From the NCBI GenBank assembly GCA_016788115.1, contig JAEURR010000005.1:310001-374000 (forward strand): a DNA stretch of 64,000 nucleotides. The letters are read 5' to 3'. This document shows positions 55,357-63,764 of this stretch, in pieces. The DNA comes from Chthonomonas sp. GTDB taxonomy: Bacteria > Armatimonadota > Fimbriimonadia > Fimbriimonadales > Fimbriimonadaceae. Numbering within the stretch: the stretch's first letter is position 1; each line of letters begins with the position of its first letter. The position numbers and the translations under genes were made by a program. The notes beneath the pieces were generated by a model. The model saw only the letters and a program-made list of their open reading frames with translations, did no database searches and was not told the origin of the DNA.

Positions 55357-56389
55357 CGAAACTTGTCCGCAGTGCCTGAACCTGGTGACGCGGCCTTACC
55401 GAGAGTGCCACGAGACCGGATGCCCCATGGCGGACGCGGATGTCCATACCGGCGGTGACTTCCAGGTCGGCCCGGAACTTGCTCGCGCCAACCTTCAGCG
55501 AATGCGCGGAGACTACGACGGCGCGACCGGAACCTGCCTCTCGATCCTCAAGCGCTTACCGGGCAGCTTTGCCGCGCACTCTCTTTTGGGCGACATCTAT
55601 TCTGAGCGTGGAGACCTCGAGCATGCCAGCGAATGGTACGAACTCGCCATCGATCTGCACCCCGAGGACCAGCCGGTGCGCGAGAAACTGGAGTCGATCA
55701 AGACCCGCATCAAGCAGCGACACTCGGCCAGCACGAGCGCTCAGCTTGGCATCGCTGCTCCCGAACCGCGAGTGAGGGCGCTCACTTGGGCAGCCGTCGT
55801 GTTCACCGCTCTGGTGGCCGTCCTCGCGTTCATCGCGGGTCGGATGTTCAAGAGCTCGAAGGTCGGCGACTACACGACCCCCATCGCCATTACCCAGTCG
55901 GCATCTCAGCCTGCGGACGAGGCTTCGGAGCCTCCGAAGACGGCCGCTCCATTGGAAACTCCAGCGATGAACAAGTCCGCCGACGTTCCCCGTGACGAGA
56001 TCCTCACGCGCCCGCTCGCCTCCCCCAAGCCGGAGGTCGACCTTGCCATCCTAGAGAAGGTGCGTGAGCAACTGGTCGAGTCCAAGCGCGTCATCGATGC
56101 TCAGCGCGAGGTGCGCTCCCTGGCGATCATGATCACCGCGACCGCCAGCGCAACCGAAGATCTGAAATCGCTGTGCGCGCGCATGGCGGCCGATGCACTG
56201 GACATCGTGGACGATGCTCCGCGAGTCACCATGCGTTTGGTGTCCGGACCCAAAATGCTTTTCGTCGCGGACATGGCCCGCGAGGATCTCAAAAAACTTC
56301 GTGAAACGGTCAATCGCCCCAGCGATTCCGACCTTGTGAGCATCTTGCGTAACGTTTGGCCTGTACCGGACGCGGCGGCAAACGGGTAA
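55307..56389 (+). CDS. TPR membrane protein with N-terminal cysteine cluster
   Basis: The 360-residue product (ATG 55307) has a Cys-rich N-terminus (CPQCLNLV, CHETGCPM: a potential zinc ribbon), TPR-like repeats (ANLQRMRGDYDGATGTCLSI, LEHASEWYELAIDLHPED), one membrane segment at about residue 167 (AAVVFTALVAVLAFIAG), and a C-terminal domain with ILEKVREQLVESKRVID helices. Its start overlaps dut by 50 bases; GTG 55328 is an alternative. It may assemble protein complexes at the membrane. I do not recognise the C-terminal domain. Confidence 0.75.
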   Translation: MTQNVERVDLAAQEPTSETCPQCLNLVTRPYRECHETGCPMADADVHTGGDFQVGPELARANLQRMRGDYDGATGTCLSILKRLPGSFAAHSLLGDIYSERGDLEHASEWYELAIDLHPEDQPVREKLESIKTRIKQRHSASTSAQLGIAAPEPRVRALTWAAVVFTALVAVLAFIAGRMFKSSKVGDYTTPIAITQSASQPADEASEPPKTAAPLETPAMNKSADVPRDEILTRPLASPKPEVDLAILEKVREQLVESKRVIDAQREVRSLAIMITATASATEDLKSLCARMAADALDIVDDAPRVTMRLVSGPKMLFVADMAREDLKKLRETVNRPSDSDLVSILRNVWPVPDAAANG

Positions 56390-57160: not shown

Positions 57161-57573
57161 GCGTTCAGTAACACGCGCTCGGCGAGGATCACGGCGACGA
57201 AGTCGTCAATCGGCTCGGGCGGCACCTGAAGCGTCGAGGGCAGGAGCCTTCGCCAGCCGGATCGCTTGTTGTGAACCCAGTAGCGGGCGCGCGCCTCGTG
57301 CGAAGTGTTGTGCTCATCCACCACCATGAGTGCAACCCCAGGGAGTTCTTCTCGCAGGCGGCGCTGAAGGTCACTGGACTTGGTCCCGTTCCCGATGACC
57401 ACCAGAGTGGGGCCGCGAAGTGAAAACGCTTCGCGCACAGCCTCGTCGACGCTCTCAACCGGGCAAACCTTGCGCCACAGGATATCGAGTTTCTCTTCGC
57501 CAACCCGCTCGACCAGGGCCATGCCGATCTTGCTGGAACCGGGATCCATAGCCAGAATGATCCTTCCGGTCAT
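57157..57573 (-). CDS. RuvC/YqgF-like ribonuclease-H-fold protein
   Basis: A 138-residue RNase H-fold protein. IILAMDPGSSKIGMAL opens with the catalytic Asp of the RuvC/YqgF clan, VVIGNGTKSSDLQRRL is followed by LMVVDEHNTSHEARARYW (Glu/Asp region), and PIDDFVAVILAERVLL provides the last acid. It resembles YqgF (16S rRNA maturation/Holliday junction resolvase) but is the shorter type common in Cyanobacteria and deep-branching phyla. Its ATG overlaps the stop of the upstream DUF3084 gene by four bases. Confidence 0.8.
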   Translation of the reverse strand: MTGRIILAMDPGSSKIGMALVERVGEEKLDILWRKVCPVESVDEAVREAFSLRGPTLVVIGNGTKSSDLQRRLREELPGVALMVVDEHNTSHEARARYWVHNKRSGWRRLLPSTLQVPPEPIDDFVAVILAERVLLNA

Positions 57574-59078
57574 CGCAACCTCAATTCAAATCGGACGGGG
57601 CCAGCAGACCGAATTGCGCCGGACGCCAGCACTTGAAGACGAATTCGACGGTTTTGCGCGCGGATTTCCTGCGCGAGCTCCAGCACCCGGGCCTGACTCA
57701 CCTGACCAAAGGGATCGCCACGCCCAGCTACCGGGATGACTCCGTCCCGATCCAGTACGAACGGGAGCTGAGTCGCGAGCCACTGGGTCATCGTGTCGAG
57801 GACCTCCCGCTCGCTACGGTCGCCTTCGATGCGAGTTTCAGCGATAATCGCGCCGGGCTGGTAGATCACGCGGTTGGCACGGAGGGAGTACCGCAGCGGC
57901 ACCGACTCGCCTTTGAACGAATTCCAGACCGCGCTCAAAATCAGCACCATCGGCTCGGACTGCCGCACCATCTCTTCACGAAGGAAGGTGCGTTGCCGCT
58001 CGGGAGTCACCAACCGCTCGCCTTCGCCGATCGTGTGAAAGTCAGCGGCTTTGTACAGGATGGAATCGGCTGCTCCGCGCTCGCGTGCGGACTTTGCAGC
58101 GGAGCGCAGCGCCTCGGCGATCGCGGCGTCGGCTTCGGGGTAAGTCATCGCGGCGGGGAGTTCACGGCGAACGACCTCATCGTTCATCGAGTAGATGAGC
58201 CCGCCGACGCGGGCCACGCCAGCGTTCTCGCGCAGTTGCCGTGCTTTCTCTTCGAGCGCCCGCGCTTGGACCTCGATGTCGGTCAGCCTAGCCTCGGCGT
58301 CGCGAATGAGCGACTCCTTCTCGGCGAGTTGCTTGCCCGTAAGCTCGAACTGCCGATCGAACTCGGCCTGCGCGAGCCGAAGGTCTTCCCGTGCCTGGGT
58401 CTTCTCCGTGTCCAGCCTGCGCGCTTCTCGCGTCAACGAATCGACTTCCGCATTCACCTTGCTGAGTTGGGTGTTGTACGAAACGATGTCGCGCTTGAGA
58501 ACCCTCAAGTTGCTGGCGAAGACTCCGTTCTCCTGCTGCAACCGGCCGGACTGAGTGCGCAGCGAAGCCAGCGTCGATTGAACGCGGTTGACGGTGGATT
58601 GGAGTGAACCGAGTCGCGCTCGTAGCGCTCCGCCTTGAGTCTGAAGCTCCTTGATTCGTGCTTGGCGCTGACCAAGGTCGGTGCGGGCGGTCTTGAGTTG
58701 CTTCTCAGCGGCGATCCGCTGCGCCTCGATCTGGTCTGCGGTGCGTTGGAGCTTGGTCAAATCTGACTTGGCCGCGCTCAGATCGCTCTTGGCAGTGACC
58801 AGCCCGGCTTGAACCCGATCTCGCTCGGAGATGAGTTGCGAGCCTTCGCGCAAGATGGTCCGAAGGTCTTGACTCGAGAACGCGAGCATCGCAGTCGTGA
58901 TCAGCGGAATCAGGAAGCCAGCCAAGGTGATGAAGACGGTGGCAGTGTGCTTGGGTCGCATCCGAAAGATGGAAAGCCGCTTCTTGCCGATGGCGCGCCC
59001 CATGTTATCGGCCAGCAATGCCACGACTGCGCCGACGAAGCAGAAGACCAAGATCAGGCCAGCGCTTACTATGTTCAT
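57570..59078 (-). CDS. DUF3084 coiled-coil membrane protein
   Basis: The 502-residue product has two N-terminal membrane helices (SAGLILVFCFVGAVVALLAD and TATVFITLAGFLIPLITTAML), with RAIGKKRLSIFRMRPKHTAT between them, characteristic of DUF3084. From about residue 70 to 280 runs a continuous coiled coil (repeated Leu/Ala heptads, KSDLSAAKSDLTKLQRTAD). The C-terminal part has ESVPLRYSLRANRVIYQPGA. It is anchored in the inner membrane, function unknown. The lptF gene starts just upstream in its transcript (four bases away), so it may be part of the LPS-export operon. Confidence 0.85.
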   Translation of the reverse strand: MNIVSAGLILVFCFVGAVVALLADNMGRAIGKKRLSIFRMRPKHTATVFITLAGFLIPLITTAMLAFSSQDLRTILREGSQLISERDRVQAGLVTAKSDLSAAKSDLTKLQRTADQIEAQRIAAEKQLKTARTDLGQRQARIKELQTQGGALRARLGSLQSTVNRVQSTLASLRTQSGRLQQENGVFASNLRVLKRDIVSYNTQLSKVNAEVDSLTREARRLDTEKTQAREDLRLAQAEFDRQFELTGKQLAEKESLIRDAEARLTDIEVQARALEEKARQLRENAGVARVGGLIYSMNDEVVRRELPAAMTYPEADAAIAEALRSAAKSARERGAADSILYKAADFHTIGEGERLVTPERQRTFLREEMVRQSEPMVLILSAVWNSFKGESVPLRYSLRANRVIYQPGAIIAETRIEGDRSEREVLDTMTQWLATQLPFVLDRDGVIPVAGRGDPFGQVSQARVLELAQEIRAQNRRIRLQVLASGAIRSAGPVRFELRLR

Positions 59079-59081
59079 GGG

Positions 59082-60203
59082 TTAGGCATTCTTCCTCTGA
59101 ATAGTGAACAGCGCGACGGCCAGTCCAATTCCCAGCGGCAAGAAACTGGCCAACCACGCGGGAATCGCTCCGCCGCGCGCCCAAATCGACATGAAATTGG
59201 TGAGCAGCAGGTAGCCGAAGATGATAATAACGCTGAGCCAAAAGCCAACCGCCGCGCCGGTGCGGTGGTTGCGGATGCCCAGCGGAGCGCCGACCAGCGC
59301 GTAAATGAGTGCGGCGAGCGGGATGGCGATCTTGTTCCAGTAGCCGAACTCAAGATTCGCCACGGTATCGGCTGGGGCATTGATCTTTCGCTGATTTTCG
59401 ATTTGGCGGCTGATCTCACGCATGCTCAGGGAATCAAGGTCCTTGAGATCGCCCGCGAGCAGGTCTTGGTCGGTGAAAGTGGGGCGCGGGACTGAGCCTG
59501 GCCACGCATCGGTGAAGGTCGCGGTGACTCCTTTGTCGCTGATGAGCTTGGCCTTGCCCACGACACGCCAGCCTTGGTCCGGATTGAGCTTGCCCTTGGT
59601 GAGGTCAAAGACCATCCGATCCGCGGTGAGCAGGAGGTTTGGCACCTCATCTTTGTCATAGAAGACGATTGCGACGTTATCGAGCGCCCGATCGGCAATG
59701 TTAAAATTCTTGGCCGCCACCATGCCGGTGAGCTTTCCTTTCTCGAAGATGGGATAGCTCGTCGGTCGCACGCTTTGGCCGTCAATTTGGGTGACGATCT
59801 TCTCTTTCAACGCGGTCGCGCTGTAGCTCGCCTGCGGGACCAGGAACTCCGTGATCAAGAACGCAAGGAGCGAGACGGCCGCGCCAAAGATCGCGACCGG
59901 CACCATGATCCGCCCCAGGCTTGTCCCTGCCGCGCGCATCGCCACGATCTCGCTCTCTCCGCTGAGCCGCCCAAAGGAGAGCAACGCGGCGAGAAGCACT
60001 GCCATGGGAAAAGTCTTCGCCATGACGCCGGGAGTCAATAGGGTGGCCAGCTTGGTGACCGTCCACATGTCCACACCCTTAGCCAGGTACGCCGTGAGTT
60101 GGAACAGGAAAGAGCCCGCCATGATCAGCGTCGTGAAGATGGCGACGCCAAAGACCCACGGGCCGATGATCTCGCCGAGCACAAGGCGGTCGATGCGCTT
60201 CAA
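59082..60203 (-). CDS. lptF: LptF/LptG-family LPS transport permease
   Basis: The 373-residue membrane protein has six helices in the LptF/G pattern: IDRLVLGEIIGPWVFGVAIF and FPMAVLLAALLSFGRLSGESEIVAM at the N-terminus, a periplasmic beta domain of about 170 residues in the middle, and WNKIAIPLAALIYALVGAPLG at the C-terminal side. It works with LptB and LptC to extract LPS from the inner membrane. Only one of the normal pair (lptF and lptG) is here; a second copy could be elsewhere or the protein may form homodimers. It overlaps lptB by four bases. Confidence 0.9.
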   Translation of the reverse strand: MKRIDRLVLGEIIGPWVFGVAIFTTLIMAGSFLFQLTAYLAKGVDMWTVTKLATLLTPGVMAKTFPMAVLLAALLSFGRLSGESEIVAMRAAGTSLGRIMVPVAIFGAAVSLLAFLITEFLVPQASYSATALKEKIVTQIDGQSVRPTSYPIFEKGKLTGMVAAKNFNIADRALDNVAIVFYDKDEVPNLLLTADRMVFDLTKGKLNPDQGWRVVGKAKLISDKGVTATFTDAWPGSVPRPTFTDQDLLAGDLKDLDSLSMREISRQIENQRKINAPADTVANLEFGYWNKIAIPLAALIYALVGAPLGIRNHRTGAAVGFWLSVIIIFGYLLLTNFMSIWARGGAIPAWLASFLPLGIGLAVALFTIQRKNA

Positions 60204-60937
60204 GCGCCGTCAACCTCCCGATGCTCGAATTGCTGGCCAAGATAGAATTTGCGAACATCGTCCATCGCAGTGATCTCACTTGCCGTGCCGTGCGCGATGA
60301 TCTCGCCGTCGATGAGGATATTGTTGCGGTCTGTGATGCGGAGCGTTGCGCCGACATTGTGGTCGGTGATCAGAATCCCGATTCCCCGCGATTTGAGTTT
60401 GCTGATGATCGCCTGGATCTCTTCGATGGTCACTGGGTCGATGCCGGTGAACGGTTCGTCGAGGAGGATGAAGTGCGGTTCGGTGGCCATGGCCCGCGCG
60501 ATCTCTACTCGCCGCCGCTCGCCACCCGAGAGCACTCCGGCCGTTCGGTCGAGCAGCGCCGAGATGTGCAGCTCAGCAGCAAGCTCGTCGATTTTCTCGG
60601 CGATTGCGGCCTTGCCAGCGCCGTTCATTTCCATCACGAGACGAATGTTGTCGGCAACACTCAGACGTCGGAAGACGCTCGTTTCCTGCGGCAGGTAGCC
60701 AATCCCAGCGCGCGCGCGCTGGTACATGGGCCACTTGGTGATGGTCTTGCCGTCCAGCTTCACGGTCCCCTCGTTCGGTTTGACAAGGCCAGTGATCATG
60801 TAGAAGGTAGTGGTTTTGCCCGCGCCATTGGGTCCCAGGAGCCCCACGACCTCACCCGTCTCAAATTCGAACGAGACCTCGTTGACAACGCGCCGCGACT
60901 TGTAGATCTTGACGAGCCCTTCAGCAGTGATCTTCAC
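60200..60937 (-). CDS. lptB: LPS-export ABC transporter ATP-binding protein LptB
   Basis: A 245-residue ATPase. Walker A is LLGPNGAGKTTTFYMITG, the signature is LSGGERRRVEIARAMA, and Walker B is FILLDEPFTGIDPVT; IGYLPQETSVFRRLSV holds the Q-loop with the LptB-typical PQETS(V/I)FR sequence. It drives LPS transport with LptF/G. The gene lies between lptF (four-base overlap) and the fused lptC-lptA (four-base overlap). Confidence 0.95.
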   Translation of the reverse strand: MKITAEGLVKIYKSRRVVNEVSFEFETGEVVGLLGPNGAGKTTTFYMITGLVKPNEGTVKLDGKTITKWPMYQRARAGIGYLPQETSVFRRLSVADNIRLVMEMNGAGKAAIAEKIDELAAELHISALLDRTAGVLSGGERRRVEIARAMATEPHFILLDEPFTGIDPVTIEEIQAIISKLKSRGIGILITDHNVGATLRITDRNNILIDGEIIAHGTASEITAMDDVRKFYLGQQFEHREVDGA

Positions 60938-62589
60938 GGATTTTTCGCTCCCGGCTTTTCGGTCACTTCGCTGGTGCCCTCACCGATGAGCTCGACCTTG
61001 CCGACGAGCCCCTGCGCATTGAGCATCACGACGGCCTTCTTGCAGCGGGTGTTGCCGAAGAGGGCGGAGTCTTCGCCCGTGAAGCGAACGTTCCCGTCGA
61101 GCGTGATCCGCGCGGCACCCCCGTCCAGAGATTCGTAGACCAGAGCGTCGCTGGTGCCGTCCACGCGCAGCGGATTCACCTTGCCGTCCTTGCCTTTGCG
61201 TTGCTCGTAGAGGGTCAGTCGCACTGGGCCGCGCATCGTCATGGAGCGCAAGGCGGTGTTGCTCGATTCGCTCAAGGGGGTCATGGACACGGTCGCTCCC
61301 GATCCGCCAATCGTCAAGTCCTGAAACCCGTCGATCGTGCTTCGCACGGTAACGGCCCCCTTTGCCACGAGCGTACTCTCGCTCGCGCCTTCCGTCCAGT
61401 CAACTGCAGAAGCATCGACTTGGGTCTTGCGCGAGCCTTCCGCGGATTGCCCCGACATCGTCGCAACCACCGGGCCCGAAATCTCGATGCCGCGTAAAGG
61501 TGCTTTGGTCTGAGTTCCGAACGGAGCGAGCCGTACGCGAGCGGACGAGCCGGTCAGCACCACCGAGCGGTCTTTCGCCCCGGCGCCGTCCAAAGTGTTG
61601 GTGATCTTCACTTTGCCGGGCAGGGTCGCCACGCTCTCACCGCTGCCCGCGACGTAGTCCATGCGTTCGGACTCCATGGCGAGCGTCCGGCGTCCGGTCG
61701 CGAGTTCGTTGACGATGGTCGCATCGAGGTCGCCACTGAAGGTCGCGGTTGAGAGCTCGAATCCTCCGCCATCGGCAGCGAGCGCCTTCCCTTCGGCACG
61801 ACGGGCGAGGACGGTGAGGTTTTGCTTGCGCCAGAATCCCTTGAATCGGGGCGCCCCTTCGACCGTGAAGTGCATCGCATCCGAGACAAGCTCCCGGCTG
61901 ACCGACTTGAAATTGTCGATAGCCATATCGGCGACACGGTTCTCGGCCTGCCCCGCCAGGGATGTGGTGAGGGCGACTGCCAGAATGGGCAGTGCGGCGT
62001 TTCGTCGCATCGCGTTTTGCTTCATCGTTTCGATCTCTCTCTTGAAGACGTCCGGGGTTCCCACCCTGCGCATGTCGGCGGTCGCAAGCATCGCGGGCAA
62101 TGGACCCACGTTGTACGACTTGCTAACGATCCGGACATTTCCGCGCGCCTCGATCAGTTGGTAAGCGTCGAGGTATCGCACGGAGTCGGCGGACAAGGCG
62201 AGGTCGCCACCCACCTGCTTTATATGAACCCCGGGCGACAGACTGAGAACGCCCGCTTTTTGGTCCGCAACTGCCTTTGGGGCGGAAAAGGTGCTGCCCT
62301 CAGTGCCGTCCTGGTAGAGGCTCCCGGTGACCTGATCAAACTGCCCGGCGGCACGGCCTTCTCCATCCAGCGAGACGCCTCCAGTGCTCCACTTGACGGT
62401 CCACAAGGATTTCCCTTCCGGAGAAGTCTGAGTCATTGCTCCAGCGCCGGTGTTCACCTTGCGCGCAGGCTCGCTCGCGGTGGCCGACGACTCGGGCTTC
62501 ACTTCAGGCTTGGGAGCGGTCGGCTTCGCGCCGCAGCCGCACAGCATGAAGAGCGCGGCGCAGGCCAGCGCGCCGCCGCTAGTCCACAA
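60934..62589 (-). CDS. Fused LptC-LptA-like LPS transport protein
   Basis: The 551-residue product combines two proteins. Residues 1-180: lipobox MLCGC (Cys 19) and an LptC-like beta-jellyroll (LWTVKWSTGGVSLDGEG, HIKQVGGDLALSADSVRYLD). Then Met 189 (62025) starts MKQNAMRRNAALPILAVALTT, which looks like a signal peptide with an A-x-A-like site, followed by LptA/OstA-type beta repeats to the end. Either the two are fused, with the hydrophobic stretch as an internal anchor, or LptA is also made from Met 189. TTG 62589 is preferred: GGGAGG lies 8 bases before it. It overlaps rlmN by 11 bases. Confidence 0.75.
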   Translation of the reverse strand: MWTSGGALACAALFMLCGCGAKPTAPKPEVKPESSATASEPARKVNTGAGAMTQTSPEGKSLWTVKWSTGGVSLDGEGRAAGQFDQVTGSLYQDGTEGSTFSAPKAVADQKAGVLSLSPGVHIKQVGGDLALSADSVRYLDAYQLIEARGNVRIVSKSYNVGPLPAMLATADMRRVGTPDVFKREIETMKQNAMRRNAALPILAVALTTSLAGQAENRVADMAIDNFKSVSRELVSDAMHFTVEGAPRFKGFWRKQNLTVLARRAEGKALAADGGGFELSTATFSGDLDATIVNELATGRRTLAMESERMDYVAGSGESVATLPGKVKITNTLDGAGAKDRSVVLTGSSARVRLAPFGTQTKAPLRGIEISGPVVATMSGQSAEGSRKTQVDASAVDWTEGASESTLVAKGAVTVRSTIDGFQDLTIGGSGATVSMTPLSESSNTALRSMTMRGPVRLTLYEQRKGKDGKVNPLRVDGTSDALVYESLDGGAARITLDGNVRFTGEDSALFGNTRCKKAVVMLNAQGLVGKVELIGEGTSEVTEKPGAKNP

Positions 62590-63649
62590 CGCGCAAGCCT
62601 CCCGATCGGCGGGCAAAACGACCCGTATGCTGGCCAGCAAGCTGCCCGCATGCGGCGGCGATGTCGTGCCCCCGTTCCACACGCTCGGTCACGTTGCAGC
62701 CGCGACTCTCCAAGTAGCCTTTGAATCGGCGCACGTTCTCGCGCGTGGGTCGTTTGAATCCCTGACCCGTGTCCACCCAGTTGAACGGGATGATGTTGAT
62801 GACGTTGGGTACGCCCTTCACGAGCTTGGCCAGGGCGTCCGCCTGCTCCCGCGAATCGTTGACCCCTTGAATCAGCAGGTACTCGATCGTGATCTTGCGT
62901 CCCGTCGCCTCGTGGTAGGTCCGCATGGTGGCGAAGACTTCGGCCACCGGCCACTTGTGATTGACGGGCATGAGTCGCGAACGGACCTCGTCAACCGCCG
63001 AGTGGAGCGACAGCGCAAGGTGAATGGGGAGTTTGTGCTCGGCGAGTTTGAGTATCTGGGGAGCGAGACCGACGGTGGAGACGGTGATGTGACGCAGGCT
63101 GAGGCCCACTTCATCGTGCATGAGGTGAATCGTCTTGAGCAGATTGTCCAGGTTGAGGAGCGGCTCGCCCATCCCCATAAAGACCACGTGGCTCAAGCGG
63201 CGCTCGGTAAGTGACTGGAGAAGCAAGTACTGACCGATGATCTCGCTGACCTCTAGGTTGCGATCGAAGCCGCCAAGACCCGTTGCGCAGAAGGTGCAGC
63301 CCATCGGACAGCCGACCTGGGTCGAGAGGCAGCAGCTCACGCGATCTTGGTAAGGAAGCAGTACGCACTCAAAGACCTGCTGGTCGCCGCGGTGAACCAG
63401 GAGTTTTTCGACCCCGTCGGAGGACTTCTTGTGATCGGCGACTTGCAGTGGGCACGCCACAAACTCCGCCTCAAGCCTCGTTCGCAGTTGGACCGGCAGA
63501 TCGGTCATGAGTCCAAACTCACGAACGTTCTGGCGATACAGGTTCTGCGCAAGTTGTCGGCCACGCATCTTCGGCTCTCCGAGATCGACGAGGATTTCGG
63601 ACAGCTCGCGGGCGCTATGGCCCAGCAGGGCAGGCTTGGAGAGAACCAT
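62579..63649 (-). CDS. rlmN: 23S rRNA (adenine-C2)-methyltransferase RlmN
   Basis: The 356-residue radical-SAM enzyme methylates A2503 of 23S rRNA and tRNA A37. It has CPMGCTFCATG (cluster motif), VVFMGMGEPLLNLD, and the second catalytic cysteine in HDIAAACGQLAG. The start ATG 63649 follows the TTG at 63655 in frame; I prefer ATG. It lies first in the minus-strand run with the LPS-export genes, overlapping lptC-lptA by 11 bases, so it probably shares their promoter, which should lie in 63656-63764. Confidence 0.94.
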   Translation of the reverse strand: MVLSKPALLGHSARELSEILVDLGEPKMRGRQLAQNLYRQNVREFGLMTDLPVQLRTRLEAEFVACPLQVADHKKSSDGVEKLLVHRGDQQVFECVLLPYQDRVSCCLSTQVGCPMGCTFCATGLGGFDRNLEVSEIIGQYLLLQSLTERRLSHVVFMGMGEPLLNLDNLLKTIHLMHDEVGLSLRHITVSTVGLAPQILKLAEHKLPIHLALSLHSAVDEVRSRLMPVNHKWPVAEVFATMRTYHEATGRKITIEYLLIQGVNDSREQADALAKLVKGVPNVINIIPFNWVDTGQGFKRPTRENVRRFKGYLESRGCNVTERVERGHDIAAACGQLAGQHTGRFARRSGGLRVVD

Positions 63650-63764
63650 CGACAACGAATCGGAGTTTACCTGTCACCAGGTTCAAACCCCGCTGAACGA
63701 AGTTACTTTGGGGCGACTGGGACCCTCCGCGACAGATTTGTCGTAAAAGCACGATAATAGGACC

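Follow-up and report, generated by a model that had tools for sequence, protein, structure and literature searches.

Can LptC and LptA, two parts of the periplasmic bridge of the lipopolysaccharide export (Lpt) machinery, be encoded as one protein in nature, and if so, what would such a gene produce? The question was raised by an earlier note on a 64,000-nucleotide stretch of a Chthonomonas sp. contig (hereafter the window), which described the two proteins as separate in known systems and read them here as one open frame. Its premise agrees with the mostly open literature searched: no natural LptC-LptA fusion was found in the parts of the sources covered, including PMC5007114, PMC8871954, PMC4986956 and PMC6728339. 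For diderm Firmicutes, the accessible text of one of these describes two OstA-domain proteins, each of about 200 aa, that are separate (PMC5007114).

The fused frame and the predicted fold of its two halves

The minus-strand frame runs through its 551 codons (62589 to 60934) without a stop, as the earlier note had claimed, and stays open from before 62682 down to its TGA (Table 1). The TTG chosen as its start is also the best start and has a strong Shine-Dalgarno (SD) match (GGGAGG, -10.3 kcal/mol against the anti-SD). In 50-codon segments flanking the joint between the two halves, GC at the third codon position reaches 0.72-0.78, and this position is the GC-richest of the three, in the same frame, on both sides; the signal fades further upstream, at codons 75-150. 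The gene lies in an Lpt operon, adjoined by lptB and an LptF/LptG permease gene, and the order lptC-lptA-lptB is also that of E. coli. A DUF3084 coiled-coil membrane protein is encoded directly after the permease (57570-59078, minus strand). Rfam gave no family above threshold between positions 56000 and 64000 of the window.

Table 1. Features of the fused gene and its neighbours in the window, in the direction of transcription.
Feature	Position	Strand	Evidence or remark
rlmN	62579..63655	-	TIGR00048, E 9.6e-111; overlaps lptCA start by 11 nt
Fused lptC-lptA coding frame	60934..62589	-	TTG start 62589, TGA stop 60936-60934, 551 aa
N-terminal lipoprotein signal, residues 1-19, lipobox ending in Cys19	62533..62589	-	sequence
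LptC domain, residues 43-179	62053..62463	-	AlphaFold2 model; 6mjp_C, Z 14.5, rmsd 2.8, 132 aligned
Purine-rich stretch TCAAGAGAGAGATCGAAACG before internal start	62026..62045	-	moderate Shine-Dalgarno match, -5.3 kcal/mol
Internal ATG and signal-peptide-like segment, residues 189-215, MKQNAMRRNAALPILAVALTTSLAGQA	61945..62025	-	sequence, hydropathy
LptA-like jellyroll region, residues 213-551	60937..61953	-	AlphaFold2 model, structure matches
lptB	60200..60937	-	TIGR04406, E 3.4e-101; GTG start, 4-nt overlap (GTGA) with lptCA stop
LptF/LptG permease	59082..60203	-	PF03739, E 7.8e-67

AlphaFold2 modeling of the window protein (12-row alignment, mean pLDDT 81.3, pTM 0.76) predicted two all-beta parts, with strands at residues 43-177 and 213-535. 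Compared with solved structures, the first part matches the LptC jellyroll (Table 1), and the second matches LptA (2r1a_C, Z 13.5 over 340-507) and LptH (4uu4, Z 12.0 over 300-462). Another of the best matches to this second part is the N-terminal jellyroll of LptD (9kn3_A, Z 14.6 over 298-525), level with LptC and LptA entries over other ranges; unlike in LptD, no outer-membrane barrel follows, and the frame ends at 60934. Sequence families add little to this picture. A Pfam search of the fused protein returned no family at E 0.1, and NCBIfam a single match below its cut-off, LptC_YrbK TIGR04409 (E 0.079, 12.5 bits against a cut-off of 38). The identities that the earlier note had assigned to the two halves are thus borne out by predicted structure and barely by sequence families; the naming of LptC rests on the predicted fold and the operon, and "LptC-like" is the safer word.

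The lipobox cysteine named in the earlier note, Cys19, is unchanged in all 26 LptC rows aligned. Compared with the known bridge (LptB2FGC of Vibrio and Enterobacter, LptA of E. coli), the jellyrolls are the same by predicted structure and the same partner genes adjoin. The differences are that one polypeptide carries both domains and that LptC has a lipobox where its E. coli counterpart has a transmembrane N-terminus. In that species, where lptCAB constructs have been used, the transmembrane part of LptC is dispensable and loss or exchange of the anchor is tolerated, according to the portion of the study covered (PMC4986956); another anchor is therefore no surprise, and a lipid-anchored LptC bearing LptA is plausible.

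Other OstA-like genes occur in the genome of the window (G000); beyond their PF03968 matches, the assignments on contigs C5, C7 and C8 were judged by eye. Contig C5 (222165-223574) encodes a 469-aa OstA-like protein that appears to carry a membrane anchor at its N-terminus; the protein passes the PF03968 cut-off only together with its in-frame neighbours and might be another LptC- or LptA-like bridge part. On C7, the gene for an LptF/G-like permease of 408 aa precedes a frame that matches PF03968 and is otherwise barrel-like, possibly an LptD set apart from the window's lpt operon. C8 carries on its minus strand a further PF03968-matching frame whose remainder is also barrel-like; it is transcribed away from a dnaJ-like gene and is possibly a second LptD. 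A search with PF13100 found no match in seven genomes.

Junctions across the class

The same fusion, which the earlier note had proposed to seek in Armatimonadota, was found in other members of the class. The class-wide search covered the same 113 genomes as the order-wide search, and an LptC-domain match was obtained in 82 of the 85 genomes of the window's family. Junctions between lptC and lptA were compiled as 87 rows (79 from this family, six from f5, one from f3 and one from f2, G025), of which all except G088 were resolved. The count leaves aside G042, G063 and G065 (matches cut by contig ends), G024, G083 and G084 (no match), G040 and G101 (f5, weak or no match), G027 (f4) and the f2 genomes other than G025.

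The two genes are fused in frame in 17 of the 86 resolved junctions and separate in 69, G080 being counted as separate from its LptC stop alone. Four-nucleotide NTGA overlaps account for 60 of the separate junctions, TAATG-type contacts for two and other stops for seven. Besides G000, the fusions comprise G007 and G070 (genus g6, both genomes examined), G023, G072, G073, G074 and G075 (genus g22, all five examined), G048 and G059 in g20, where the other genomes read have separate genes, G026 (f3), and G028, G030, G032, G034, G036 and G038 (all six read of the eight f5 genomes). The two congeners of the window's genome, G001 and G002, have separate genes with a TTGA or ATGA overlap.

Homologues encoded separately with a stop at the joint had been named in the earlier note as grounds for dismissing the fusion. 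They do make up the 69 junctions, both congeners included, and speak for a derived fusion, not against its reality. Outside the class, 29 genomes matched of the 156 searched in the phylum; none of the 23 genomes among the matches listed spans both domains without a stop, and four of these span both with a stop. Separate lptC and lptA are therefore likely the ancestral state. On a quick tree of LptC, LptA and LptB, with the root set on f5 by hand, the fusion label requires six changes over the 86 rows, at least four of them forced by well-supported branches, against a mean of 15.8 for shuffled labels. Some forks in the window's clade are unresolved, and the number of fusion events there is therefore uncertain.

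As a control, the lptA-lptB junction was examined in 78 rows (eight further rows have no lptB). It is never fused, and shows the same NTGA overlap in 72 rows; the remainder comprises three other stops and three cases in which the lptB frame is open merely 32-33 codons upstream of the Walker motif. The contrast between 0 of 78 and 17 of 86 suggests that fusion of lptC to lptA is permitted by the common compartment in which their products act: fusion would be tolerated where both products are periplasmic, and the joining of an exported to a cytoplasmic protein should not be.

Several neighbouring cases emerged from the survey. In G081 (L059) and G098 (L075), lptC and lptA share one frame that is interrupted by just one TAG, so that a single codon keeps them from being fused. 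The LptC frame ends in a stop in all six f2 genomes G035, G037, G039, G029, G102 and G103; at the f2 loci L026, L029, L030, L165, L166 and L167, no LptA frame was identified directly after the LptC stop, unlike in G025, on incidental inspection. G083 and G084 (genus g45, 1.5 Mb, 97% complete) are the sole family members more than 90% complete with no LptC match, which perhaps reflects loss of the export route in small genomes.

The joint and its possible products

We interpret the locus as a natural in-frame lptC-lptA fusion whose main product is probably a single lipid-anchored periplasmic protein, that is, a tethered bridge. Most likely, the stretch that separates the LptC domain from the lptA start changed in length, and the resulting frameshift left the former lptC stop, within the ATGA overlap, out of frame; the ribosome would then read through, and once the in-frame stop was gone every LptC would become LptC-LptA. 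In the product, the LptC jellyroll would be connected to the LptA jellyroll by some 35 residues that include the former LptA signal peptide, and the protein would hand lipopolysaccharide from LptB2FG to its LptA segment, as the separate proteins do elsewhere. Because the former signal is weakly hydrophobic and has basic residues before its core, it would most likely pass the Sec channel as a linker. With the old lptA start intact in the window species, some free LptA may also arise, and in some lineages the signal would later have decayed, leaving the fused form only. Production of a functional fused protein in the window species is our inference. Against the tethered bridge, only roughly 15 bases separate the LptC end from the ATG, and a one-base error among them could give the appearance of a fusion, and the presence of another OstA-like protein in the genome, the one of 469 aa, means that the gene need not be the sole source of LptC or LptA.

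The signal-peptide-like character of the joint, described in the earlier note, was confirmed. The ATG at 62025 is residue 189, preceded by AAGAGAGAGATCGAAACG and followed by a basic n-region, a hydrophobic core and a plausible cleavage site, all inside the frame. The segment contains the most hydrophobic 13-mer beyond the first 20 residues (Kyte-Doolittle 1.96 versus at most 1.26 elsewhere). The ATGA at 62025, with its TGA now out of frame, is likely a relic of an lptC/lptA overlap. Gene pairs with such overlaps, tested elsewhere, are coupled by termination-reinitiation, according to the part of the report covered (PMC6728339), and LptA translation in the relatives with the same overlap (60 of 86 junctions) probably depends on this mode by analogy. 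In the window gene, which keeps the ATGA as a remnant, the upstream stop is out of frame, so that reinitiation at that stop cannot happen. The anti-SD energy at 62025 is equalled or exceeded in strength by 15% of the 303 internal ATGs in the window's long ORFs, and the best start within the first 60 codons is at least as strong in 59% of 46 long ORFs; the value is compatible with initiation, no more.

Across the 17 fusions, a start codon and a hydrophobic core are kept at the joint in 14 (12 ATG, one GTG and one TTG), with best joint 13-mers of 1.72-2.25. The joint 13-mer tops the hydrophobicity after residue 20 in 13 of these 14, the exception being G070 (1.90 versus 1.92 elsewhere). The surviving start reads NTGA, with the TGA out of frame, in 13 of the 14, an uncontrolled count of a pattern that requires no more than an A as the first base of the next codon, as is often the case in signal peptides; these NTGA motifs are likely relics of the former overlap. 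In g22, whose species are down to 28% identical, the joint Met is among just three invariant of 25 Met columns (two of the five genomes being 91% identical), and the hydrophobic core is kept as well.

A hydrophobic core is missing from the joint of the remaining three fusions, G048, G030 and G034 (best 13-mers 0.42, 0.89 and 0.62, respectively), which do carry start-type codons in that region, but none with a signal-like core after it. The LptA part would hardly be exportable there except within the fusion, and the fused bridge component is thus likely the product in these genomes. The predicted model of the G048 fusion (26-row alignment, mean pLDDT 90.3, below 50 only at residues 1-3, 8-12 and 175-178) shows two well-ordered jellyrolls and a short, poorly ordered linker, with an LptC match over 31-189 (Z 16.4) and an LptA match over 223-379 (Z 13.0). 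MORN proteins align with this model across both domains as well (6t69, residues 54-378, 204 aligned, rmsd 3.1, Z 11.9). This hints at uninterrupted stacking of the two jellyrolls, although the relative placement of domains in a predicted model proves nothing.

Compatible with the tethered bridge, and a real possibility if short of probable, is a gene with two products: the fused protein would be made, and ribosomes would also start at 62025 to give an exported free LptA, the ratio of tethered to free protein being set by one gene. The intact ATG, the signal features and an anti-SD energy close to that of a typical start agree with this, and start and core persist in 14 of 17 fusions, which is more in keeping with selection for internal initiation than with a plain linker. 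The invariant Met of g22 points the same way, as do strong SD matches in G026 (-11.4), G036 (-7.6) and G038 (-7.4). Together with G000 (-5.3) and G070 (-4.9), these are the five of the 14 signal-keeping fusions that reach -4; the other nine, including all five of g22, are weaker, yet among 60 overlapped lptA starts the share that reaches -4 is just 43%. As 21% of the 303 internal ATGs in the window also reach that value, SD strength was rejected as proof of internal initiation. The g22 segment may be held by selection for a reason other than SD-driven initiation, or initiation there may be independent of SD. A second product is further disfavoured by the 15% of internal ATGs in the window that score equally well, by the missing stop before the start, which makes the mode likely in the overlapped relatives impossible, and by the dispensability of the signal in G048, G030 and G034. 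The earlier note had proposed that both products could be made. Its fused component is supported by the relatives, recurring in the class and including three fusions with no joint signal; its free LptA from 62025 is possible, the SD match being moderate and nine of 14 comparable relatives having no good one.

Could the fused frame instead be incidental, with the readthrough product degraded or cleaved and working LptA coming from the internal start only? The preservation of signal and start in 14 fusions would suit this, but nothing stops the ribosome, no separate LptC could be made and LptC would always carry the extra domain; three genomes also have no signal-like segment at the joint, and we judge the idea unlikely.

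A polyprotein is hardly likely either. Here the whole chain would be exported and cut by signal peptidase I at about residue 215, releasing LptC and LptA in a 1:1 ratio. The segment does end in a cleavage-site-like sequence, and cytochrome b/c1 FbcH offers a precedent of a bacterial polyprotein cut at an internal signal. With the LptC domain already outside, however, the segment would be inserted into the membrane in the wrong orientation for cleavage, and it has been lost in three of the 17 fusions.

A mistake of about one base in the sequencing or assembly of the joint, hiding genes that overlap by ATGA as in the congeners, is very unlikely. Both congeners have separate genes and the ATGA is still present out of frame, but the joint contains no long homopolymer, and the single assembly from which the window's fusion is known (nine contigs) is 97% complete. 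Such fusions also occur in both g6 genomes, all five of g22 and all six read of f5, and from the g22 and f5 cases the arrangement is real, though the window copy comes from one assembly.

Finally, a transmembrane helix at the joint, acting as a second anchor and leaving LptA in the cytoplasm, is scarcely credible: the joint is the most hydrophobic stretch after the N-terminal signal, but it is short and weak (a membrane-insertion energy of about +1.8 kcal/mol, a rough guide from an approximate scale with ad hoc edge weighting), its basic residues lie on the outer side, and a cytoplasmic LptA would not work. The earlier note had asked whether residues 189-212 form such a segment; the predicted model has no helix over the core, placing a helix at 179-196 and then a low-confidence stretch at 198-210 (pLDDT <50) that holds most of it.

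Meaning for the Lpt bridge

By comparison across the class, the proposed tethered bridge is a variant of the known Lpt machine whose intermediate stages can be followed with unusual clarity. The route in living species, which we reconstruct tentatively, may have led from the four-base overlap to loss of the in-frame stop with the signal kept, perhaps with free LptA beside the tethered form, and then by signal decay to a pure fusion with a fixed contact. With overlap, fusion with a signal and fusion with no signal in one series, how overlapping genes for exported proteins merge becomes testable.

The LptC-LptA contact is a drug target, of thanatin, according to the part of the source covered (PMC7237710). 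The natural fusions suggest that this contact can be permanent in an essential export route. They bear on whether LptA must exchange, and they supply covalently joined bridge pieces for structural work. If the interpretation is true, a fused bridge would fix the LptC-LptA contact, and the bridge would assemble with no LptC-LptA binding step.
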